Shown here in pieces: positions 34,453-48,743 of a stretch of 64,000 bases of DNA (position 1 is the stretch's first letter; each line of letters opens with the position of its first letter). Source of the DNA: a bacterium (GTDB lineage Bacteria; Electryoneota; Electryoneia; Electryoneales; Electryoneaceae); contig JAHLLB010000019.1 of assembly GCA_020444425.1 (NCBI GenBank), positions 1 through 64,000 of the forward strand, given 5' to 3'. The position numbers and the translations under genes were made by a program. Below the pieces are notes generated by a model. That model was given only the letters and a program-made list of their open reading frames with translations, ran no database searches and was not told where the DNA came from.

Positions 34453-34747
34453 TCGTAACCTGGGGTATTGGTCAACGTGAAGTACTGGTGAGGTAGTAGT
34501 ACCCGGAAGTACGGGTAAAACAGATCAACAACGATTCGGATACTGGGAGCTAACTCTTCACGATTTCTACTGTTAACGAATCTATATCGTTGTAATTGAT
34601 GCAGGGGTAAGAAGTCTTGCACATCGGCAATACATCCCGGCAATCTTACCGGCAGGTCACCAATAATTACGTTGAGCCCTGTGAGAAGGTGGCCCAACGT
34701 GATGATTTTCCGCCGTATCTTGTACCCGTGCCCGTTTGGGGGAAGGT
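34453..34747. other. Intergenic, no gene
   Basis: I see no coding frame or RNA structure of note between the tRNA terminator and the broken sensor gene. Confidence 0.45.
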
Positions 34748-35165
34748 ATGAGCGGTACCACATACCGCGTGCGGATCCATCGTCATCAGTGGCGAGTTTG
34801 TTTCCCCCACCGACTCTGCACGCTGATTCTGCTGGCTTGCGTCGTGTTTGTCACAAACGCAGGCGCGGCGGACTCCATCCGTATCGGCGTGCTCGCTCCG
34901 TACGGCAAAGCGGTTTGCGTCAATCAGTGGCTGGCGACAGCGGACTGGTTGGACACCTCCATCCCTGGTACATCCTTCGATATTGTTCCGCTCACCTACG
35001 ATGAAGCTGTTGATCCGGCAACCTTGCCCGGCCTTTCCTTCGTGATTGTCAATCCGGCGATGTACGTGCAGCTCGAGAAGGAGCATGGCGCGTCCCGGAT
35101 CGCCACCCGCAAGACCGATGTCACCGGAACAGCTGTAACCACTTTCGGCGGTGTGTTATCGCAGG
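34748..35165 (+). pseudogene. N-terminal fragment of a PhnD-like sensor protein
   Basis: The ATG at 34748 follows GGGGGAAGG. About 135 codons give a signal peptide (ending AGAADS) and the first lobe of a PhnD-type periplasmic binding domain: [65 protein letters not shown]. This form is common at the N-terminus of sensor histidine kinases. Similarity stops near 35155 and the sequence runs into a piece of Sbp in another frame. The second lobe and any kinase part are missing. Confidence 0.65.
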
Positions 35166-35179
35166 CTGCAGGAATCGCC

Positions 35180-35625
35180 GGCTGGATCGAACCGGGCAAA
35201 CCGTCACCATCGAGATGTCGCACGGCGGATCGGGCAAACAGGCGCGGTCGGTGATCGACGGGCTGGAAGCGGATGTCGTCACCCTGGCGACCGCCTCCGA
35301 CATCAACGCCATCGCCGCGAACGCCGGCCTGTTGCCGGAAACCTGGCAGACGCAACGTCCGCACAACAGCGCGCCCTATTACTCGACGATGGTGTTCATC
35401 GTCCGCGAGAGCAATCCGAAGCACATTCGTGACTGGGGTGACCTGGTACGGGCAGACGTCTCAGTCATCACCCCGAATCCGAAGACATCCGGCGCGGCCA
35501 GGTGGAGCTATCTCGCCGCCTGGGCGTGGGCGAAAGAGCAGTACTCCAGGGACGAGACAAGAATTCGAGACTACATGGCCGGTCTGTACGCCAATGTCCC
35601 GGTGCTTGACAGCGGCGCGCATCGG
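35180..35625 (+). pseudogene. Internal fragment of sulphate-binding protein Sbp/CysP
   Basis: This piece covers the middle of a periplasmic sulphate-binding protein: [21 protein letters not shown], then [50 protein letters not shown], and [24 protein letters not shown], ending at NVPVLDSGA. The anion-contact motif SGGSGKQ-like and the TSGAARW motif are preserved. The signal peptide, first segment and C-terminal part are lost. The reading frame differs from the fragments before and after it. Confidence 0.75.
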
Positions 35626-35877
35626 CGTTTGGCGTGTGGTTGATCGAACACGGCGTACGTGTTGTTTTCGCTGTGCCGGGGATCGTGCTGGCGACAGTGT
35701 TTGTCACCTTCCCGTTCGTTGCGCGCGAACTGATTCCGGTGATGGAAGCAATCGGCCCGGACGAAGAACTGGCGGCGGTCAGCCTTGGGGCCCGCGGCTG
35801 GCAGATGTTCCGCCGTGTCACCCTGCCGAACATCCGCTGGGGACTACTGTACGGCATCATTCTGTGTACGGCGCGTG
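35626..35877 (+). pseudogene. Internal fragment of sulphate permease CysW
   Basis: About 80 codons match the cytoplasmic-loop region of the sulphate ABC permease Cys[32 protein letters not shown], then [31 protein letters not shown], which is the EAA loop that contacts the ATPase. N- and C-terminal helices are missing. It is joined on the left to the Sbp piece and on the right to CysA without spacer. Confidence 0.75.
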
Positions 35878-36549
35878 CCGTCGCAACTGTCCGGCGGGCA
35901 GCGGCAACGTGTCGCGCTCGCCCGTGCGCTGGCGGTACAGCCGAAAGTGCTGCTGCTCGATGAGCCGTTCGGCGCGTTGGACGCCCGCGTGCGGCAGGAA
36001 CTGCGCGGCTGGCTGCGCAACCTGCAGAAGGAGCTTGGCATCACCACGGTGATGGTCACACACGACCAGGAAGAGGCGATGGAAGTCGCCGACCGCATCG
36101 TAATCATGAACGAAGGCCGCATCGAACAGGTTGGCAGTCCAAATGAACTGTGGGATCACCCGGCCAATCCCTTCGTCTTCGATTTCCTCGGCAACTCGAA
36201 CCTGTTTCACGGTATCGTGCGCTCAGGCTTTATCGAGTTGCCCGGCTGGAAAATGAGATCCAACGGCTGGCCGGAAGCGGGTGAGGTGGATGTGGGGGTG
36301 CGCACGTTCGACGTACGCATCGCACCGTCGCGGAATGGCTCCGGTCGCGTCAAGCGGCTTGTTTCCTCTGGTGAATTCGTGCGGCTCGAGATTGAGCTTC
36401 CGCATGACAAGCGTCTGAACGCACAGATTCACAAGTGCGATCCATCGCTGATCGGAGTCAGCGAGGGGACTCCGATCCGTGTCGAACCGTTGAAAGTCTT
36501 TGTTTTTAGCGACCGGTTAACGATGGGGGTGCCTACGAGCGTTCACTGA
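35878..36549 (+). pseudogene. C-terminal fragment of sulphate-transport ATPase CysA
   Basis: About 223 codons start at [19 protein letters not shown] (signature motif) and include Walker [13 protein letters not shown], the H-loop [16 protein letters not shown] and a C-terminal TOBE-like domain to the normal end. The Walker A half is absent, so it cannot hydrolyse ATP on its own. The frame is intact from the junction to the stop. With the pieces upstream it shows that an sbp-cysTWA operon was reduced by internal deletions while its order was kept. Confidence 0.8.
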
Positions 36550-36632
36550 CAGACATCATTGCATTCTTGCGACGGTGACTTTCCGCGGGTTACATTGTGC
36601 TTGAGTTCACAAGTAACCTGCGGGAGTCTTTT

Positions 36633-38030
36633 GTGCAATCCGCCCAGTTCCGTATCCCCGCTTCCGATCCCCTCGCCACCATCCTCGAAAGCATTACCGA
36701 GGGGGTGATGACGGTTGATCTCGATGACAAGATCACAACGTTCAACCGAGCCGCGGAGAAGATGACCGGCGTACCACGCCACAACGTGTTCGGCCAACGT
36801 TGCAGCGACGTGCTACGCTCCAGCATCTGCGAGGCAAACTGTCCACTACGGGAAACCCTCGAGACCGGCGAACCGGTGATCGCACGCCGGGCGTACATCT
36901 TCAACGCCGCCGGGCACCGTATCCCGGTCAGCATCAGCGCCTCAACGCTGCGGGACGCCGACGGCAAACTGATTGGCGGTGTGGAAACCTTCCGCGATTT
37001 GAGTGTCGTCGAAGAGCTGCGCAAGACGATAACCGTCGGCTACAGCTTCGAAGACATCATCAGCAAAAGCCTGTCAATGCGGAAACTGTTCGACATTCTT
37101 CCGGCCATTGCCCGCAGCAACGCGGTGGTGATGATCGAGGGCGAAAGTGGTGTCGGCAAGGAGTTGCTGGCGCGGGCGATCCACAACCTCGGGCCGAACA
37201 AGGACAAACCGCTGGTATCCGTCAATTGCGGCGCCCTGCCGGATTCGCTGCTCGAATCGGAATTGTTCGGTTACAAGGCCGGCGCGTTCACCGACGCCCG
37301 CAAGGACAAACCGGGCCGTTTCGCCGTCGCGGCGGGCGGCACCATTTTCCTTGACGAAATCGGCGATGTTTCGATGGCGATGCAGGTTCGGCTGCTGCGT
37401 GTGTTGCAGGAAAAGGTCTACACCCCACTCGGTGCGGTGCACGAGGAGCCGATGACCGCGCGGGTGATCGTCGCAACGCACCGTGACCTGGAGGCGCTGG
37501 TCGAACAGGAGAAATTCCGTCTCGATCTATATTTCCGGATCAACGTGATGCGGCTGACCGTGCCGCCGTTGCGTGACCGTCGCGAGGACATTCCGCTGCT
37601 GCTCGACCACCTGATCCAGAAGTACAATCGGTTGTACGGCAAACGCATCGCAACCGTCTCAGCAGATGTCCTCACTCTGCTGATGCACCACGATTTCCCC
37701 GGCAATGTGCGCGAGTTGGAAAATCTGATCGAGCATGCGTTCATCCTCTGCACCGGCCTCGTCATCAACACCGAGCACCTGCCATTGCGCTTCATCGAAC
37801 AGGTCGCGCCGGACCAGGCGGCGATCCCGCAACCGCCGGAATCGTTCGAGGATGTGGAACGTAAACACCTGATCAGTACGCTCGAGAAGTACAAGTGGCA
37901 TCGTGACCGTACCGCCCGGGCGCTGGGGATTCACAAGGCGACGCTGTTCCGCAAGATCAAGAAGTTGGGGATCGAACTGCCGGAACAGGATGGCCGCTCC
38001 AATCCCGCCGCTACCGTCGCAAAACCGTAA
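36633..38030 (+). CDS. PAS domain sigma-54-dependent activator (no receiver domain)
   Basis: The protein has 465 residues. A PAS domain (about residues 10-120) holds a cysteine cluster GQRCSDVL, SSICEANCPL that could bind a metal, haem or Fe-S group. The AAA+ domain has Walker A GESGVGKE, the L1 loop GAFTDA instead of GAFTGA, Walker B GGTIFLDEIGD and the arginine finger region. The C-terminus has a Fis-type helix-turn-helix (DRTARALGIHKATLFRKIKKLG). I start at GTG 36633, which has GGGAG seven bases upstream; a GTG at 36597 is also open. It probably drives the adjacent sigma-54-like promoter at 38236-38252. Confidence 0.88.
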   Translation: MQSAQFRIPASDPLATILESITEGVMTVDLDDKITTFNRAAEKMTGVPRHNVFGQRCSDVLRSSICEANCPLRETLETGEPVIARRAYIFNAAGHRIPVSISASTLRDADGKLIGGVETFRDLSVVEELRKTITVGYSFEDIISKSLSMRKLFDILPAIARSNAVVMIEGESGVGKELLARAIHNLGPNKDKPLVSVNCGALPDSLLESELFGYKAGAFTDARKDKPGRFAVAAGGTIFLDEIGDVSMAMQVRLLRVLQEKVYTPLGAVHEEPMTARVIVATHRDLEALVEQEKFRLDLYFRINVMRLTVPPLRDRREDIPLLLDHLIQKYNRLYGKRIATVSADVLTLLMHHDFPGNVRELENLIEHAFILCTGLVINTEHLPLRFIEQVAPDQAAIPQPPESFEDVERKHLISTLEKYKWHRDRTARALGIHKATLFRKIKKLGIELPEQDGRSNPAATVAKP

Positions 38031-38047
38031 ATATTGTCCGCAGTGAA

Positions 38048-38100
38048 CGTCGCAGAATCGCGACGCTCGACCTCGTTTTCCCTGATGACCGCCCGGTCAT
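38048..38100. promoter_or_regulatory. Two inverted repeats, possible activator sites
   Basis: CGTCGC-N6-GCGACG (38048-38065) and ATGACC-GCCC-GGTCAT (38085-38100) lie between the sigma-54 activator stop and the sigma-54-like promoter. They sit about 140-190 bp before that promoter, a usual distance for upstream activator sequences. Neither is followed by a T-run, so they are poor terminators. The role is inferred. Confidence 0.35.
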
Positions 38101-38235
38101 AAACCCGCAAGAGAGTCCCCCTGCGCTGTACCGGTTCAACTCGCCGGAACCCGTTTGTAGCAGCAACGATACCCTGTGTCCGTTTCCGTCATTTTTCTGG
38201 CGTTCCACCTGTCTCCTGCCCCTACACCCGCCAGA

Positions 38236-38252
38236 TCGGCCTTCGAATTGCT
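38236..38252 (+). promoter_or_regulatory. Candidate sigma-54 promoter before the NifX-like gene
   Basis: CGGCCTTCGAATTGCT has GG and GC separated by ten bases and a TTGC -12 element, matching the -24/-12 layout (TGGCACG-N4-TTGCA) at the core GGC and TTGC. Transcription would begin near 38263, 18 bp before the NifX-like ATG. A sigma-54 activator gene lies directly upstream. Confidence 0.45.
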
Positions 38253-38280
38253 TGATACGTGGCAGCAGGCAGGAGGCACG

Positions 38281-38649
38281 ATGCGGATTGCGATTTCAGA
38301 GTGGAACGAGATGATCAGCCCGGTGTTTGACGAGACCGGCACAGTGCGTCTTGTCAACCTTGACACCGGTGAGATCCAGCGGCTGCCGTTGTCTGGCCTG
38401 GCGGCGGGTGCCCGTGCGGAGGTGTTGCGGACGGCGGGTGTCAGTGACTTGCTCTGCGGCGCAATTTCGCCCTTCGCGTTGAAGGTGTTGACGATGAGCG
38501 GGATACGGGTTCACGCGTGGCTGCATGGTCCGATCGATCGTGCGTTGCAGGCGTTCACGCATGGTGATCTGGACGATCCCCGGTTCACCATGCCCGGTTG
38601 TCAGGCGCTGCGCGACAATCCGGAACAGGGCATGGTGGAAGAGACGTGA
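38281..38649 (+). CDS. NifB/NifX-type small protein
   Basis: The protein has 122 residues matching the NifX/NafY/NifB C-terminal fold (PF02579): MRIAISEWNEMISPVFDETGTVRLVNL, then VSDLLCGAISPFALKVLTMSGIRVHAWLHGPIDRALQAF. Family members bind Fe-Mo or Fe-S precursors, but many stand-alone copies sit in signalling clusters with unknown ligands. No nif genes are near. The ATG at 38281 follows AGGAGG; the longer frame upstream covers the promoter. It is the first gene after the sigma-54-like promoter. Confidence 0.75.
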   Translation: MRIAISEWNEMISPVFDETGTVRLVNLDTGEIQRLPLSGLAAGARAEVLRTAGVSDLLCGAISPFALKVLTMSGIRVHAWLHGPIDRALQAFTHGDLDDPRFTMPGCQALRDNPEQGMVEET

Positions 38650-38710: not shown

Positions 38711-40528
38711 ATGAGTACGACTTCTGACCAGGGCGGGAAAGCACATGGCGGGTCGAAGTCCCGGGCAAGCGGGGCGGCCGGGAACGGTCTGCAGCGAACC
38801 GAGACGTACTACCGTCACTTACTGAAGACGACGCTTTTACGTCTGTTGCTGATGTATTTCGTGCCGCTGTTGTTGTTGGCGGGATTCTTCCACCTGCAGC
38901 AGTTGAAGCTGATGCGTGAATCGCGCCGTGCACATTTGCAATCCATTGCTGAGCACCAGGCGTACATGCTCGACCTGTTCCTCCGTGAACGGATCGTCAA
39001 CCTCGAGAACGTGATCGACGATCCCCGCCTTCCGGTGCCACCTTCTAACGAGGTGATGGAGCGGCGGCTGGCCGAGTTGCGCAAGACCAGCGACACATTC
39101 GTCGACATCGGCTGGTTCAGCACCAGCGGCAACCTGCTCGCGTACGCCGGCCCGCACCCGGATCTCGAGTCTCGCAACTACGGGATGGAAGCGTGGTTTC
39201 TCGAGTTGCGCGGGTCGGCGGAACAGGTTGTGATCACCGATATTTACATGGGGTTCCGCGAGCAGCCGCACTTCACCATCGCGGTAAACCGCATCATCGA
39301 CGGTCGGTATGTCGTACTGCGGGCGGTGCTGTCGCCGGAACGGATGCGTGAGTACCTGACCACGCTGCAGCACAACGAACAGATCGTCACCTCGTTGTTG
39401 AGCAAGGACGGGTCGGTGCAGGTCGTCGCCGGACGCCAGGATCCAGGTCCGGTGCACTCGGCGATCGTGCCGCCTCGGGATCCGTGGATCGGCACTGGCG
39501 AGTTGCGCGAGAACGGGTCGAGAACCGCCTACGCCTACGCCTGGCTGCGAGCGACGCCGTGGGCGCTGCTGGTCGAGGGTGAGGATGTTGTTGTGCCGAC
39601 GGCGTTGCTCGGCGGTGCCTACTCGGCGTTGATGGCGCTGATCGGCGCGATCCTGGTGATCGAGTTTCTGGTGATTATCTACCGGGCGCGGGTGGTTGTG
39701 CGCAAGCAGCGGCGCACCGACGCACAATCGGCGGAACTGTCCGGTCAGCTGGTTCACGCGGCAAAACTGGCGACGGTCGGCGAGTTGGCGGCGGGCATCG
39801 CGCACGAGATCAACAACCCGTTGGCGATCATCGCTGAGGAAACCGGGCTCGTACGTGACCTGATGGATCCACGGTTCGGCCGCAGCCTGAGTCCGGCGCA
39901 ATTGAACGAACACCTCGACATCATCCACCAGGCGACGTTCCGTTGCCGCGACATCACCCGCAAATTGCTTGGATTCGTGCGGCAGGAAAGCGTCAATCTC
40001 GGCGAACATGACGTCCGGCAAATTCTCGACAACGTGGTGGACGGCCTGCTCGGCCGCGAATTTGAACTGTCCGGCATCCGTGTCGTCAAAGACTACAGCC
40101 CCCATGTCCCGGAGATCACCACCGACCGTCACCTGCTCGAGCAGGTCTTCCTCAACCTGGTGAAAAACGCATACGACGCGATGGACGGCACCGGCACGTT
40201 GACGCTGCATGTCAGCGCAACGCCGGCGTGTTTGTCCATTTCGGTCAGCGACACCGGGTCCGGCATCCCGCCTGAGCTGCTCGAAAAGATCTTCATGCCG
40301 TTTTATACGACAAAGGAAGTCGGGAAGGGGACTGGACTTGGCCTGTCGGTCAGCTTCGGCATCATCAAGAGTTTGCAGGGAAATATTTACGTCGATAGCA
40401 AGCCGGGAGTCGGCAGCATGTTCACTGTCGAACTGCCGGTAGTCTGGAAATCGTCCGCGCGTACATCGGATGCGGGAGTGTGGCAGATGCAGGGCAAAGC
40501 CGTTGTCACCGAAGGAGGGCAGTCGTGA
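38711..40528 (+). CDS. Membrane sensor histidine kinase with periplasmic Cache-type domain
   Basis: The protein has 605 residues. TM1 is near residues 34-56 and TM2 near 292-318, enclosing about 235 periplasmic residues of dCache type (FVDIGWFSTSGNLLAYAGPHPDLESRNYG, then FREQPHFTIAVNRIIDGRYVVLRAVLSPERM). The kinase core has the H-box ELAAGIAHEINNPLAII, N-box LEQVFLNLVKNAYDAMDG, DTGSGIPPE and GKGTGLGLSVS. No HAMP or receiver domain is evident. The nearby receiver domains (41093 and 43249) are its likely targets. The small ligand is unknown; context suggests an anion. The GTG of the CBS gene overlaps its stop. Confidence 0.88.
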   Translation: MSTTSDQGGKAHGGSKSRASGAAGNGLQRTETYYRHLLKTTLLRLLLMYFVPLLLLAGFFHLQQLKLMRESRRAHLQSIAEHQAYMLDLFLRERIVNLENVIDDPRLPVPPSNEVMERRLAELRKTSDTFVDIGWFSTSGNLLAYAGPHPDLESRNYGMEAWFLELRGSAEQVVITDIYMGFREQPHFTIAVNRIIDGRYVVLRAVLSPERMREYLTTLQHNEQIVTSLLSKDGSVQVVAGRQDPGPVHSAIVPPRDPWIGTGELRENGSRTAYAYAWLRATPWALLVEGEDVVVPTALLGGAYSALMALIGAILVIEFLVIIYRARVVVRKQRRTDAQSAELSGQLVHAAKLATVGELAAGIAHEINNPLAIIAEETGLVRDLMDPRFGRSLSPAQLNEHLDIIHQATFRCRDITRKLLGFVRQESVNLGEHDVRQILDNVVDGLLGREFELSGIRVVKDYSPHVPEITTDRHLLEQVFLNLVKNAYDAMDGTGTLTLHVSATPACLSISVSDTGSGIPPELLEKIFMPFYTTKEVGKGTGLGLSVSFGIIKSLQGNIYVDSKPGVGSMFTVELPVVWKSSARTSDAGVWQMQGKAVVTEGGQS

Positions 40529-41088
40529 TCCAAGCACTGAAGCGAGTGCGGGACCTGATGATCTCGCTGGAACAATACGCTGTCGTCGATGAGAACGCGA
40601 CGCTGCTGGAAGCCCTGTATGCGCTGGATCGGGCACAATTCCACGTGCGCAACAACGGTCATCAGCATCGCGCGGTACTGGTACGCAGCCGTGGGGGACG
40701 CATCGTCGGTAAAATCGGTCACCTCGCGTTCCTTCGGGCGTTGCGGACGGTGCATGATGATCCGCGCGGTGAAGACCGGTTGCGGCGGGCTGGTGTCGAT
40801 CAGGAAATGATCCGCCACTCGGAAGGATTCTACCGGCTGCTCAGCGAGGATGTCACCGATCTGTGTGGCAAGGCGCGCACGATCAAGGCGCGGGAGGCGA
40901 TGCGACCGGTCAGCGAACGGATCACCGCGAACGAGAGCCTGATGGATGCGCTGGACGCCTTCGAACGCTGGCAAACCCAGTCACTGCTGGTTACCGACAA
41001 CGGTGGCGCGGTGGGGATTATACGGGCTGTTGACCTGTTCGACGAAATCGCCACGACGATGAAACGCTGTGCTCAGGGGGAGAAGTGA
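40525..41088 (+). CDS. CBS-pair domain protein
   Basis: The protein has 187 residues. Two CBS motifs can be traced: VRDLMISLEQYAVVDENATLLEALYAL...RAVLVRSRGGRIVGKIGHLAFLRAL, and AREAMRPVSERITANESLMDALDAFERWQTQSLLVTDNGGAVGIIRAVDLFDEI. CBS pairs bind adenosine nucleotides or act as ionic-strength sensors. The GTG start lies within the kinase stop, 7 bases after GGAGGG, and its own stop is four bases before the receiver-transporter ATG. It may gate the fused transporter by energy state; this is inference. Confidence 0.82.
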   Translation: MIQALKRVRDLMISLEQYAVVDENATLLEALYALDRAQFHVRNNGHQHRAVLVRSRGGRIVGKIGHLAFLRALRTVHDDPRGEDRLRRAGVDQEMIRHSEGFYRLLSEDVTDLCGKARTIKAREAMRPVSERITANESLMDALDAFERWQTQSLLVTDNGGAVGIIRAVDLFDEIATTMKRCAQGEK

Positions 41089-41092
41089 GCCG

Positions 41093-43153
41093 ATGTCGCG
41101 AATCCTGCTTGTAGACGATGAGGAACGGTTCCGGCAATCATTGTCGGAACGGTTGGAATTGCGCGGGTATGAGACCGTTGGGGCGTCCAACGGCGAGGAT
41201 GCGATTAAGCACATCCGCGCCAACCGTGACATCGAAGTGGTCGTGCTCGACCGCAAAATGCCGGGCATGAGCGGCGAACAGACGCTCAAGGAAATGAAGG
41301 AATTCCGTCCGGAGTTGCAGGTCGTCATTCTCACCGGCCACGGCGACCTGGAATCCGCCAAGGAAGCGGGCAAACTGGACGCGTTCAACTACCTCAGCAA
41401 GCCGGTTGATCTGGATCAGCTGATCACGATCATCGAAGCCGCGCGGGAGGAAAAGACTTACGCCGCCGTACGCTATGAAGTGCCGGTTATCGAACGTGGA
41501 TCGGTGTGGAAGTGGTTTCTCGGGTCGCACAATTCCCGGCCGCTGTTCATCATTGCCGGGCTGCTGATCTTCGCTACGCTGGCGTTGATGCCGCTGCCGC
41601 AACGGCTGGTCACATTGGTCAGCACGCCGAAAGCGCCGGCTGGTTCGGACATCATGGTGGACGCCGACATCCAGGGTTACGCTGACTATCGCAAGATGAA
41701 GCCGGGCGCGACGGTTGCCGATTTCTACAGCGAAAAAAATGACATGATGCGGGAGGTCGTGGCTGCGGACGGGTCGCACGGCAAAGCCCCGATGCTTCCC
41801 GAGCAGACTGCCCGCCGTGCGTTGATCATGCTCGCGCTGATCGTGCTGGCGGCGTTGTTCTGGGCGTCTGGAGCGGCACCGGTGGGCGTGACCGCGCTGC
41901 TGGTCGGGGTGGTGATGTATATCGGTGACATTCTGCCACCCGACCGTATCGCGCAGGCCTTCGCCAAGGACGCCGTCATCTTCATCTTCGGCGTGCTGGC
42001 GTTGTCCAAGGCGATCACCAAGACCGGGCTTGACCGTCGCATCGGCCTGTTCCTGCTCGCCCCAGCGAAGAACCTGACGCTGCTCCTGTTGCTTTTCCTG
42101 CCGATGTTGTCGGTGACCTGCTCGTTTGTCAGCGAACATGCGCTGGTCGCGTTCACGATGCCGCTGTTCGTGATGGTCTACGGCAACACCATGCGTTCGC
42201 TGAACATCAAACGCGACCGGTCGCTGATGGTGATGTTCGCACTCGCCCTGTGTTACGCCGCCAACTCTGGCGGGCCGGGATCGCCAGCTGCGGGCGGACG
42301 CAACGCGATCATGGTCGGCATCCTCGCCGACTACGGCATCGCGCCCAGTTTCAGCGAGTGGGTAACATACGGTCTGCCGCTGGTGCCGGTGATGTCGTTC
42401 TGCGTCGGGCTGTATTTCTGGCTCACGTTGCGCCGGAAAACGCAGGTGAAGACGCTGAACGTGAACAGCATCGTGCGGCGCGCGTCGGAGAAGATCGGCC
42501 CGATGACACGCGAGGAATACGTCACCTTGTTCGTGCTGCTCGGCGTGATCGTATTGTGGGTGACGATGTCCAGCAAGCTCGGCATGGGCGGGCCGGTTAT
42601 CCTCGGCCTGGTGGTGCTCAATCTGCTGCGAGTGCTGAGCTGGCGCGACATCGCCAACATTCACTGGGAGGTGGTGTTCCTCTACGCATCCGCCAGCGCC
42701 ATCGGCAAGGGCCTGGCGGTGACCGGCGCCGCGCTGTTCATGGCGGATGGTTTCGTCAGCATTCTGCCCGACATGATGCGTTCCGGGATTGGCTTGGCAG
42801 TCGCAACCAGTATCTTCACCGGAACTGTTACCAACTTCATGAGTGATGGCGCGACGGTTGCCGCGATTGGTCCGATCACGGTACCGATGGCCACCATCGC
42901 CGGGATTCACCCGTGGATGGTCGGCTTTGCGACGGCGTACGCGTCCTCGTTCGCCCACATGCTGATTATCGGGACGCCGTCCAACGCGCTGGCCTACGCA
43001 CTGGCGAAAGACCCTGTCACCGGTGAACAACTGGTTACGCTGGGCGATTTCCTCAAGCACGGCTTCATGATCCTGCTGATCTCGTTCGTTGTGCTGTGGG
43101 CATGGGCATTCTTCGGCTACTGGCAGTGGATCGGATTCCCGCCGGTCGGATAA
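41093..43153 (+). CDS. Response-regulator receiver domain fused to SLC13/DASS transporter
   Basis: The protein has 686 residues. Residues 1-125 are a complete receiver domain: acidic pair D8/D9, phospho-acceptor D53 (VVVLDRKMPGMSG), T81 (VVILTGHGD) and K103 (NYLSKPVD). A TM helix follows (about 145-165), then a loop of some 75 residues (about 166-240), and then an SLC13 core of about 11 helices to the C-terminus (VGVTALLVGVVMYIGDILPPDRI, AITKTGLDRRIGLFLL, GGPGSPAAGGRNAIMVGIL). Both SNT-type ion motifs are altered: SEHAL and SDGAT. The fusion is in one frame with no break. I infer anion uptake switched by phosphorylation from the adjacent kinase. Confidence 0.88.
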   Translation: MSRILLVDDEERFRQSLSERLELRGYETVGASNGEDAIKHIRANRDIEVVVLDRKMPGMSGEQTLKEMKEFRPELQVVILTGHGDLESAKEAGKLDAFNYLSKPVDLDQLITIIEAAREEKTYAAVRYEVPVIERGSVWKWFLGSHNSRPLFIIAGLLIFATLALMPLPQRLVTLVSTPKAPAGSDIMVDADIQGYADYRKMKPGATVADFYSEKNDMMREVVAADGSHGKAPMLPEQTARRALIMLALIVLAALFWASGAAPVGVTALLVGVVMYIGDILPPDRIAQAFAKDAVIFIFGVLALSKAITKTGLDRRIGLFLLAPAKNLTLLLLLFLPMLSVTCSFVSEHALVAFTMPLFVMVYGNTMRSLNIKRDRSLMVMFALALCYAANSGGPGSPAAGGRNAIMVGILADYGIAPSFSEWVTYGLPLVPVMSFCVGLYFWLTLRRKTQVKTLNVNSIVRRASEKIGPMTREEYVTLFVLLGVIVLWVTMSSKLGMGGPVILGLVVLNLLRVLSWRDIANIHWEVVFLYASASAIGKGLAVTGAALFMADGFVSILPDMMRSGIGLAVATSIFTGTVTNFMSDGATVAAIGPITVPMATIAGIHPWMVGFATAYASSFAHMLIIGTPSNALAYALAKDPVTGEQLVTLGDFLKHGFMILLISFVVLWAWAFFGYWQWIGFPPVG

Positions 43154-43248: not shown

Positions 43249-43788
43249 ATGAGTACGCAGAACGATTTTCCCGGTGACCCGGTTCGTGAGGAAACCTGGT
43301 CGGGCACGCCGATCCGGTTGCTGATCATCGACGACGAAACCAGCTTCCTCAACGCCATCGCCCAGCGGTTGCAGATGCGTGGGTTTGATGTGACCACCGC
43401 GAGCAACGGCAATACCGCCATCGAAATCGCGCGCAAGCACAAGTTCGATCTCGCACTGCTCGACCTGAAGATGCCTGGTATGAGCGGCAAGCAGGTGCTG
43501 GAGGTACTGAAACAGGAGCACAAGTTCATCGAGGTGGTGATTCTGACTGGCCACGGGTCATTGGACAGCGCAGTTGAATGCACCAAACTCGGCGCGTTCG
43601 GTTACCTGCCAAAACCGTACGAACTGGAAAACCTGCTCGACACACTGAAGGATGCATTCACCGCACGAATGCGGAAGAAATTCGAATACGACCATGATCG
43701 GATGGAAGAAATCCTCAGCCTCGCGACCGGCGAGAGTGCGCTTGGCATTCTTCGCAGGCTGAAAGAGATGGACACGCCGGAGAAGTGA
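43249..43788 (+). CDS. Stand-alone response regulator (receiver plus helical tail)
   Basis: The protein has 179 residues. The receiver has D28/D29, phospho-acceptor D72 (LALLDLKMPGMSG), T100 (VVILTGHGS) and K122 (GYLPKPYE). A C-terminal tail of about 50 residues (ARMRKKFEYDHDRMEEILSL...LKEMD) is predicted helical and has no DNA-binding motif. The receiver is a close relative of the one fused to the transporter (shared LKMPGMSG and VVILTGHG surroundings), so a duplication is likely. It may be a phosphate sink or a partner of the kinase or transporter. GGAAGGAG precedes the ATG. Confidence 0.86.
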   Translation: MSTQNDFPGDPVREETWSGTPIRLLIIDDETSFLNAIAQRLQMRGFDVTTASNGNTAIEIARKHKFDLALLDLKMPGMSGKQVLEVLKQEHKFIEVVILTGHGSLDSAVECTKLGAFGYLPKPYELENLLDTLKDAFTARMRKKFEYDHDRMEEILSLATGESALGILRRLKEMDTPEK

Positions 43789-44653: not shown

Positions 44654-46807
44654 ATGATGGATAAGCGTAACCATGACCACAAGCAGCAGGAACGAGGCGG
44701 TCAGCACAAACAGGCGGATCCAGATGATCATGGACACACGCAGCATGCGTCCGCTACGGACGAAGCCCATGATCAGGATCAGCACGGACAGGGTGGACAT
44801 GACGGACACGGCGGTCATGACAGTCACAATGAACATGAGGGGCATGATCACCACGATCACCACGCGATGATGATTCGTGATTTCCGGCGACGGTTCTGGG
44901 TGTCGATTGTGCTCACCCTGCCGATTCTTGCCCTCGCGCCGATGATTCAGCAGTGGCTGGGTCTTGGTGACGCTATTGCGTTCCCGGGCGATTCGTGGGT
45001 GATGTTCGCTCTTTCGACGGCCCTGTTCTTCTACGGCGGCTGGCCGTTCCTGAAGGGCATGTTCAGCGAACTCGGCGAACGCAATCCGGGGATGATGACT
45101 CTGATCGGGTTTGCGATTTCCGTCGCCTTCGGCTACAGCGCGGCGGTCAATCTCGGTCTTTCCGGCCACACTTTCTTCTGGGAGCTGGCGACCCTGATTG
45201 ACGTGATGCTGCTCGGCCACTGGATCGAGATGCGATCCGTGATGGGAGCGTCCAGGGCGTTGGAAGAATTATCGAAACTGATGCCTTCAACCACGACTCG
45301 TGTCAACGAAGACGGGTCCACCGAAGAAGTATCGATCAAGGATCTGAACTCCGGCGACATCGTGCTGGTCAAACCGGGTGAGAAAATCCCTGCGGATGGC
45401 GCGGTCGTGGACGGCAAAAGCTCGGTCAACGAAGCGATGATCACCGGCGAATCGGTACCTGTAACCAAGCAGGAATCCGACGAGGTGATCGGTGGTTCGG
45501 TGAACGGGGAAGGTTCGCTAAAGGTCGAAGTGAAGGGTACCGGCGAAGATTCCTATCTCTCGCGGATGGTGAATCTCGTTCGAGATGCGCAAGCCTCCAA
45601 GTCGAAGACCCAGAACTTCGCCGACCGTGCCGCGCGTTGGTTGACAGCGATTGCGCTATCGTCCGGCACGATCACCTTTGCCGCGTGGCTGATCTTCAGC
45701 GACGAGAATGTCACCTTCGCGATGGCCCGCGCGGTGACAGTGATGGTGATCGCCTGCCCGCACGCCCTCGGACTCGCGATTCCGTTGGTGGTCGCGGTGT
45801 CCACGGCTCAATCGGCGAAGAACGGCCTGCTGATTCGTAACCGGAACGCGTTCGAACGCGCTCGCGACCTGCAGGCGATCATTTTCGACAAGACGGGCAC
45901 GCTGACCCTCGGCGAGTTCGGTGTCACCGATACCGTCCCGTTCGGCGAACAGTACGGTGAAGACGATGTCCTGCGGCTTGCGGCGGCGGTTGAAAGCGAA
46001 TCGGAGCATCCACTGGCGAAGGGTATTGTCGATGCGGTTGACGAAACGCCGCAGGTGAAGGAGTTCAATTCCATCGCCGGCACCGGCGCAGAAGGTGACG
46101 TCGACGGTAAGCATGTGCAGGTCGTCCGTCCCAGCTTCCTCGAGGAAAACGGGATGCAACTTGACCGGCAGGACAAGCTTGACGAACTCGCTGGTCAGGG
46201 CAAGACCGTCGTCGTTGTGATCGTTGATGACCAGCCCGTGGGCGCGATTGCCCTCGCCGACATCATCCGTGACGAGTCAAAGGAAGCGGTCAAGCTGCTG
46301 AAATCGATGAACTTTCGCACCATCATGCTGACCGGCGACAACAAGCAGGTGGCGGAGTATGTGGCTGGCGAAATCGGCATTGACGACGTGTTTGCGGAAG
46401 TCCGTCCAGACGGCAAGGCCGACAAGGTCAAGGAAGTGCAGAAGGACGGAACAATCACCGCGATGGTCGGTGACGGCGTCAACGACGCCCCTGCGCTGGC
46501 GACGGCGGATGTCGGAATTGCAATTGGTGCCGGAACCGACGTTGCGGCGGAAACGGCTGATGTGATCCTGGTCCGTGACAATCCGTTGGACGCCGCTTCG
46601 GTCGTCCGGTTCTCGCGCGCGACCTACAAGAAGATGATCCAGAATTTGTGGTGGGCGACGGGTTACAACGCCATCGCAATTCCGCTTGCAGCCGGTGTGC
46701 TGTTCTGGGCGGGGATTATCCTCAACCCGGCTGTTGGTGCGGCCCTGATGAGCGTGTCAACGGTTGTCGTCGCGATCAACGCGCGGCTGCTGCACGTGGA
46801 GAAGTAA
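44654..46807 (+). CDS. Copper-translocating P1B-type ATPase, CopB-like
   Basis: The protein has 717 residues. The N-terminus (1-75) is a His/Asp-rich metal-binding tail (HDGHGGHDSHNEHEGHDHHDHH) rather than a CxxC domain. The core has the TGES actuator motif (ITGESVP), the membrane site ACPHALG (CPH type, P1B-3), phosphorylation motif DKTGTLT, the SEHPLA nucleotide-binding loop, and the hinge GDGVNDAPAL. CPH-type pumps export Cu(II) or Cu(I) across the inner membrane. The gene opens the metal-resistance region. ATGATG gives two near-equivalent starts. Confidence 0.92.
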   Translation: MMDKRNHDHKQQERGGQHKQADPDDHGHTQHASATDEAHDQDQHGQGGHDGHGGHDSHNEHEGHDHHDHHAMMIRDFRRRFWVSIVLTLPILALAPMIQQWLGLGDAIAFPGDSWVMFALSTALFFYGGWPFLKGMFSELGERNPGMMTLIGFAISVAFGYSAAVNLGLSGHTFFWELATLIDVMLLGHWIEMRSVMGASRALEELSKLMPSTTTRVNEDGSTEEVSIKDLNSGDIVLVKPGEKIPADGAVVDGKSSVNEAMITGESVPVTKQESDEVIGGSVNGEGSLKVEVKGTGEDSYLSRMVNLVRDAQASKSKTQNFADRAARWLTAIALSSGTITFAAWLIFSDENVTFAMARAVTVMVIACPHALGLAIPLVVAVSTAQSAKNGLLIRNRNAFERARDLQAIIFDKTGTLTLGEFGVTDTVPFGEQYGEDDVLRLAAAVESESEHPLAKGIVDAVDETPQVKEFNSIAGTGAEGDVDGKHVQVVRPSFLEENGMQLDRQDKLDELAGQGKTVVVVIVDDQPVGAIALADIIRDESKEAVKLLKSMNFRTIMLTGDNKQVAEYVAGEIGIDDVFAEVRPDGKADKVKEVQKDGTITAMVGDGVNDAPALATADVGIAIGAGTDVAAETADVILVRDNPLDAASVVRFSRATYKKMIQNLWWATGYNAIAIPLAAGVLFWAGIILNPAVGAALMSVSTVVVAINARLLHVEK

Positions 46808-47344: not shown

Positions 47345-47423
47345 TCAAGATCTGAGAACGTGAAATAGCCCGGTGGAAACAGGAGCATCTTTTCCATTGG
47401 GCACAAACAGAAGGAGACGGAAC

Positions 47424-48743
47424 ATGTCCTTGCGATGGTTCTTGGTGATGGTAACGCTGCTGGTTGCCGGAGCAGCAACCGCCCAAATGACAGGCACCGT
47501 GGCTGGTACGGTTACCGATCTTGACGGCCAACCGCTTGAAAACGCTTATGTGACTCTTCATGATGGCGAACACCACGGTGGCGGAGGTCATCATGGTGGC
47601 GGTGGAATGATGGGTGATTACGAAACCTGGACCGGTGCCGATGGCACATTCTCCATTACGGAGGTCGAAACCGGCGACTATCTGGCTCGTGCCATGCTTT
47701 CAGGATTCGGGATGGACGAAATCGAGATCACAGTCGAGGCAAACCAGACGGTGACCGTGGATTTCGTGCTTGAGACCGGTGGTCACCAAGGCGGCCACGG
47801 CATGCATGAGTGGGAGGAAGTCGATCTAGCCGGGTGGACAATTGTCGTGGAAGACGACTGGCATGACTTCTACTATCTCGACGAAGAGAACGACGGAGAA
47901 GCTGAGTATCACCTCGGATTCGGCCCCCCGGGATATGAACCTCCCGGTGACATTGAACTGCCACAGGACGGTGACGAAATCACGATCACCGGCGGCCTGA
48001 TGATGATGGGCGGCTGGGGCAACGACCTGCCGATGGTGATGGTCTTCACCTTGAACGGTGAGACGTGGTTTGAACCCGATTCCATGGGTGGTCAGCACAA
48101 CGGTCATGGTGGCGAGTGGCACCAGGATCATGATAACTGCATGTTTGAACAGCCGACCTTCCAGGGTGCGGAAGGCTGGGTGCTCGTTGACGACGACGCG
48201 GACGGCCACAACCGTTTCTGGCTCGACGTGGATGACGATCAGCAGGCTGATCTGCGTCTTTCATACGGACTCATGGAATACTCACCTGGTAACGAAGCAC
48301 ACCGCCCCACTCAAGGCGACTGGGTTGAACTGAGCGGGGGTTGGATCGAAGGTTGCCCTGAGCATCCAACACTCGTTGTTTACGAGCAGAACGGTTTGTT
48401 CTGGCGTGAACCCGGTGACACCACCGGCCTCCAGGCCACCGGCCTTAGTGTGGGCGAACCGGGAGATGGCGCGGTCCCTGTTGACCATCTCATGGTAACC
48501 GCCTATCCGAACCCGTTCAATCCGAAAACAACGTTGCAGGTCTCACTTCCGGAGCAGGCGAATCTTACGGTGTCTGTCTTCGACGTATTGGGCCGTCAAA
48601 TGCAGTCGTTTGACCGGGGTCTTGTAAACGCAGGCGTGCATCAGTTTACCGTGGATGCATCCGGCTGGTCCTCCGGTATTTACTTTGTGCGGATTCAAGC
48701 CGGAAGCGCGCAGCAGATAACCAAGATTCAGCTGATGAAATAA
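47424..48743 (+). CDS. Secreted protein: carboxypeptidase-regulatory domain, duplicated unknown domain, T9SS sorting tail
   Basis: The protein has 439 residues and a signal peptide (1-21, ending ATAQ). A CarboxypepD_reg-like beta-sandwich (TGTVAGTVTDLDGQPLENAYV) has a His/Gly loop (EHHGGGGHHGGGGMM). Two tandem copies of an unrecognised domain of about 85 residues follow: each starts GW-x2-V-x-DD, holds a YxLD or FWLD strand, and ends NGxxWxEP or NGxFWREP. The C-terminus is a type-A sorting domain (AYPNPFNPKTTLQVSL...IYFVRIQAG). I infer an exported, possibly copper-binding protein. The ATG at 47424 follows AAGGAGACGG. Confidence 0.8.
   Translation: MSLRWFLVMVTLLVAGAATAQMTGTVAGTVTDLDGQPLENAYVTLHDGEHHGGGGHHGGGGMMGDYETWTGADGTFSITEVETGDYLARAMLSGFGMDEIEITVEANQTVTVDFVLETGGHQGGHGMHEWEEVDLAGWTIVVEDDWHDFYYLDEENDGEAEYHLGFGPPGYEPPGDIELPQDGDEITITGGLMMMGGWGNDLPMVMVFTLNGETWFEPDSMGGQHNGHGGEWHQDHDNCMFEQPTFQGAEGWVLVDDDADGHNRFWLDVDDDQQADLRLSYGLMEYSPGNEAHRPTQGDWVELSGGWIEGCPEHPTLVVYEQNGLFWREPGDTTGLQATGLSVGEPGDGAVPVDHLMVTAYPNPFNPKTTLQVSLPEQANLTVSVFDVLGRQMQSFDRGLVNAGVHQFTVDASGWSSGIYFVRIQAGSAQQITKIQLMK

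Follow-up and report, generated by a model that had tools for sequence, protein, structure and literature searches.

A receiver domain joined to an SLC13-fold transporter in a conserved kinase-linked gene cluster

In the window, which is the whole 64,000-nucleotide stretch of DNA analysed here, a receiver domain and a membrane transporter are encoded within a single reading frame, together with genes for a histidine kinase, a CBS-domain protein and a second receiver protein, RR2. The features of this cluster, each followed by the evidence on which it was assigned, are:

38711 to 40528, + strand: histidine kinase with HisKA and HATPase_c domains and a weak dCache match below the Pfam cut-off; likely phosphodonor (Pfam, linkage, genome co-occurrence)
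40558 to 41088, + strand: CBS-domain protein, a constant cluster member in the window's phylum (Pfam, neighbourhood comparison)
41093 to 43153, + strand: fusion of a receiver to an SLC13-fold transporter, 686 aa, comprising receiver (residues 3-122), linker (123-148), TM1 (about 150-178), enlarged TM1-TM2 loop (179-235) and transporter core (236-683) (frame, Pfam, AlphaFold, Foldseek, alignment)
41093 to 41458, + strand: receiver domain of the fusion, with D8, D9, D53, T81 and K103 (Pfam, alignment of 46 fusions)
42131 to 42139, + strand: SEH (residues 347-349), replacing the first SNT motif of DASS symporters (alignments)
42842 to 42850, + strand: SDG (residues 584-586), replacing the second SNT motif of DASS symporters (alignments)
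43249 to 43788, + strand: RR2, a lone receiver extended at the C-terminus by about 40 aa, a constant cluster member (Pfam, neighbourhoods, orthologues)

The initial annotation had described positions 41093-43153 as one unbroken frame containing both a receiver and a transporter, and our analyses agree: the frame translates into 686 aa without an internal stop, with an alternative GTG start possible 24 nt upstream, and both domains score above their Pfam cut-offs, Response_reg at residues 4-114 (E 5e-26) and Na_sulph_symp at residues 236-680 (E 2e-34; PF00939 scored at 119.7 bits, the cut-off being 27). The N-terminal domain is thus Response_reg, and no STAC, SPX or kinase domain was detected by Pfam in the chain. 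An AlphaFold model built from an 18-sequence alignment had a mean pLDDT of 82 and a pTM of 0.72, with a weak stretch at the hinge, residues 131-136 (pLDDT <50). In Foldseek searches, the N-terminus matched receiver domains (3jte, TM-score to target 0.90), and the best matches of the membrane part were human NaS1 (8y5w, E 8e-14), NaCT and VcINDY (6okz, TM-score to target 0.79). The transporter half is a whole SLC13 fold, spanning about residues 150-683.

The assignment of this half to SLC13/DASS in the initial annotation holds for the fold, on both Foldseek and PF00939 evidence, but not for the DASS signature. Specifically, at the positions that align with the Na+/substrate sites the fusion has SEH and SDG instead of the two SNT signatures, and the score of 159.2 bits against NCBIfam TIGR00785 'dass' is below the cut-off of 198.6; we therefore label the protein SLC13-fold and not a proven Na+:dicarboxylate/sulfate symporter of the DASS family (TC 2.A.47). 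Since its motifs are unlike those of the studied symporters, transport by the fusion is assumed. Both replacement motifs hardly vary across the fusion clade and a receiver-less sister clade. Gene context weakly suggests that the putative substrate is a sulfur oxyanion, for example sulfate: among relatives, APS kinase and DsrC-like proteins are encoded in the neighbourhoods of L044 and L045, APS kinase also near L046 and L054, TauE near L043 and L051, and SulP near L051, and in the window fragments of a sulfate ABC transporter are found some 2-4 kb upstream from the kinase gene. These fragments belong to a series at 34736-36549, consisting of a TtrS-like tetrathionate sensor N-terminus and incomplete stretches of a sulfate-binding protein, CysW and CysA, with no gene whole; the series resembles a sulfate ABC transporter region that has decayed or been misassembled.

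Other genes of the window were also noted. Positions 36597-38649 encode a PAS-sigma54 activator and, after it, a small protein with a weak resemblance to Nitro_FeMo-Co, just below the Pfam cut-off, and a clear Nitro_FeMo-Co protein is encoded downstream of RR2 in Desulfosarcina (L037). Downstream of the cluster, 44654-46807 encodes what, from translation alone, seems to be a P-type metal ATPase, its N-terminus very rich in His, and the product of 47373-48743 combines a carboxypeptidase regulatory-like domain with a C-terminal sorting domain of the Por secretion (T9SS) type.

Whole-genome searches revealed 46 distinct fusions. The architecture was present in 16 of the 39 genomes of the window's phylum, representing five families (one of these copies, in G006, is frameshifted at about residue 302), in 25 of 291 Desulfobacterota genomes sampled from the class of a Desulfosarcina genome, near-closed genomes among them, in one Myxococcales genome (Myxococcota), and in five genomes from three other families elsewhere in Bacteria; a 26th Desulfobacterota candidate (G338), interrupted by a contig end, is outside the count of 25. 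The fusions formed one clade both in a tree of SLC13 proteins calculated from the transporter part only (SH-aLRT 96) and in a tree of 174 receivers (SH-aLRT 99), from which we conclude that the fusion arose once. A recent chance fusion is ruled out by this single clade spanning several phyla. The only receiver-less row within the fusion clade, L086, has a frame that reaches the contig end, so that it was considered cut rather than an instance of receiver loss. The sequences come mostly from metagenome assemblies, which could favour an explanation in which two genes had been joined by an assembly or frameshift artefact; however, no frameshift or stop separates the two domains, the frame and junction are identical in 46 distinct proteins, and the fusion is unbroken on contigs that nearly equal the genome in length (G113:C1, 5.2 Mb of 5.2 Mb; G095:C1, 3.9 Mb of 3.9 Mb). 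Because the frame is intact in independent genomes, some on contigs of this kind, we regard the fusion as real and the artefact as ruled out, its probability being negligible.

Residues D8, D9, D53, T81 and K103 of the fusion line up with the phosphotransfer residues of receivers, as initially annotated, and they are kept at each position in at least 45 of the 46 fusions (D8 and K103 in 46/46; D9, D53 and T81 in 45/46), which rules out a degenerate, non-signalling receiver for 45 of them. Mean conservation over the 46 sequences was 0.69 for the receiver and 0.74 for the transporter core. That one ancient fusion has been kept across phyla, with a receiver almost as conserved as the core, supports the view, at the level of sequence comparison, that the receiver serves the transporter.

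The gene neighbourhood is also conserved. The cluster in the window's phylum is ordered kinase, CBS protein, fusion and RR2, tightly spaced on one strand, and the usual order in Desulfobacterota is kinase, fusion and RR2. The CBS protein and RR2, constant members of the cluster in the window's phylum, do not figure in the initial annotation. Among the 26 loci with enough flanking sequence to be assessed, the kinase adjoins the fusion in 25 (upstream on the same strand in 24 and divergent in one, L111), and RR2 is downstream of the fusion in all 26. Within the window's phylum, and with G003 set aside, an orthologous kinase is present in 14 of 15 fusion genomes; in the fifteenth, G023, the contig stops before the kinase position. 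None of the 23 fusion-less genomes has it, and only distant kinases of about 31-33% identity are present in them. Orthologues of RR2 were found in 14 fusion genomes of the phylum and in no other of its genomes; they are absent from G003 and from G015, in which the contig terminates at the RR2 position. RR2 has no output domain detectable by Pfam, and no DNA-binding response regulator was found in the core cluster among the loci of the window's phylum. The sigma54 activator at 36597 was rejected as an output of the kinase, having no receiver and not recurring beside the fusion in the phylum.

One lineage departs from this pattern:

L050, 238 to 2307: fusion of G003, its receiver degenerate through D9P, D53A and T81S; the genome has neither a kinase orthologue nor an RR2 orthologue

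This is the one fusion of the 46 without D53. Other genes occupy the expected kinase position upstream of its CBS gene, and the genome search returned only a distant kinase of 33% identity. Of all the receivers compared, this one diverges most, while the transporter is ordinary (z = 3.9 for the difference). The pattern is suggestive, fitting a kinase that would act on the fused receiver and a transporter that would be useful by itself, as read from a single lineage with co-loss of D53 and kinase, in an assembly that is 91% complete and on a contig that stops just downstream of the fusion. Taken with the adjacency of the two genes and their co-occurrence in genomes, this joint loss gives comparative support to the initial proposal that the kinase at 38711 is the donor, and the adjacent kinase likely phosphorylates the fused receiver.

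Related parts occur in other arrangements. The transporters of the sister clade, at about 42% identity, lack a receiver but are encoded next to a related kinase, and free receivers lie beside them in most of the loci read (L098-L103, L116). In addition, many of the genomes containing the fusion also have a second cassette, encoding a kinase, a receiver-receiver protein or a single receiver, another SLC13-fold transporter, whose motifs are SDH/ADG, and a receiver-CBS protein:

L045, 3546 to 8943; L046, 1055 to 6399; L110, 10134 to 15925; and further loci: second cassette

Recurrence of the same parts in shuffled form suggests that kinase, receiver, SLC13 and CBS components work together. In Desulfobacteria, the second cassette often includes an extra small membrane protein, which is Yip1-like in L102. 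We also observed a Cytidylate-kinase-like domain fused to a receiver (L043, 5299-6756; L051, 4684-5991; L117, 682-1908), the genes for which lie next to that for a kinase and, varying between loci, that for a SulP permease or TauE exporter, and may possibly represent another receiver-controlled transporter locus.

From these comparisons, phosphorylation of the fused receiver likely gates transport, and we consider it probable that the cluster is a two-component system with a transporter as its output. The kinase at 38711 would detect a signal, probably an external ligand, and autophosphorylate; the phosphate would then move to D53 of the receiver, carried on the cytoplasmic N-terminus of the SLC13-fold transporter, and the resulting change in the receiver would travel via the conserved linker into TM1 and alter transporter activity, bypassing transcription. 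As a guess, RR2 would compete for, or drain, the same phosphate, and, equally as a guess, the CBS protein would contribute an adenine-nucleotide signal.

At the sequence level, direct gating would look much like a membrane-anchored drain for phosphate, or like signalling from the transporter to the kinase. The transporter might be the sensor (a transceptor), its substrate or conformation tuning the phosphate on the receiver and hence the kinase and RR2, the latter being the true output. Transporters that inform kinases are already known from the SLC5-STAC kinases CbrA/CrbS, RR2 is present in every assessable locus and could be such an output, and the altered SNT motifs could mean sensing without transport; however, RR2 lacks an output domain, and the G003 transporter stays conserved after loss of the kinase, RR2 and D53. 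A transporter that outlasts the signalling parts is useful without signalling, which weakens the transceptor reading, and we judge it unlikely, though deserving of more weight than the other two alternatives considered here. Two receivers per kinase resemble known phosphate-sink arrangements, and the fused receiver might likewise be a membrane-anchored sink or scaffold that drains phosphate from the kinase or tethers the kinase at the transporter and leaves transport unchanged. For such a role, a transporter fusion kept as a single clade through several phyla would be unnecessary, and the sister systems manage with free receivers next to the transporter; we regard this as rather improbable. 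Retention of a receiver in G003, albeit a degenerate one, is what might be expected of a domain acting without phosphorylation, in folding, targeting or dimerisation, but D53, T81 and K103 are kept in at least 45 of 46 fusions and the kinase is a constant neighbour, so that we give this explanation very little credence.

Beyond phosphorylation-gated transport by the fusion itself, there may be a class of two-component systems in which response regulators act directly on transporters, in cis as in this fusion or in trans through free receivers encoded beside receiver-less transporters (SLC13-fold, possibly also SulP and TauE), and kinases set ion transport post-translationally, with a transporter lineage in which acidic and histidine residues replace the SNT motifs; we put this forward tentatively, as a proposal with a little less than an even chance of being correct. 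The known outputs of response regulators are DNA-binding, RNA-binding, enzymatic and protein-interaction domains. If the favoured reading is true, a transporter covalently joined to its receiver would add a new class to these outputs, and a kinase could shift uptake ahead of any transcriptional response. With this fusion, a lineage naturally without D53 and a sister clade without the receiver to hand, a single aspartate is enough to put the idea to a direct test.

No paper describing a receiver-transporter fusion was found in the literature searched, outside of which lie most subscription journals, in line with the initial statement that no characterised example was known. The architecture proved to be recurrent. 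The initial annotation had named a common and already studied architecture as a reason to discount its proposal, and prior study was not found in that literature. InterPro or MiST may list the receiver-transporter architecture as an unstudied one. A survey of sulfate transporters in sulfate reducers (PMC5840216) makes no mention of response regulators.

Several known systems resemble the fusion in part. VcINDY, NaCT and NaS1 share its fold and Pfam family, but the fusion has SEH and SDG in place of the SNT motifs, a longer TM1-TM2 loop and a fused receiver. CheY and PorX, of which PorX was among the Foldseek fold matches of the fusion, are response regulators that act at the protein level without DNA binding, whereas the output of the fusion would be an integral membrane transporter on the same chain. 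CbrA/CrbS likewise combine a secondary transporter and a two-component module within one chain; there, however, an SLC5 transporter and STAC form the input side, joined to the kinase, and DNA is the target of the response regulator, whereas in the fusion an SLC13-fold transporter is joined to the receiver, on the output side. By analogy, the closest precedent for a domain-gated transporter is the SPX domain of yeast Pho87/Pho90, and Pho90 structures were among the fold matches of the fusion. In Pho87/Pho90, too, an N-terminal cytosolic regulatory domain is attached to an SLC13-fold transporter, where it restrains transport, and phosphate uptake increases by as much as eightfold once it is removed (PMC7381174). 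The difference is in the signal: SPX answers inositol pyrophosphates, whereas the fusion has a phosphoaspartate receiver and a linked histidine kinase.
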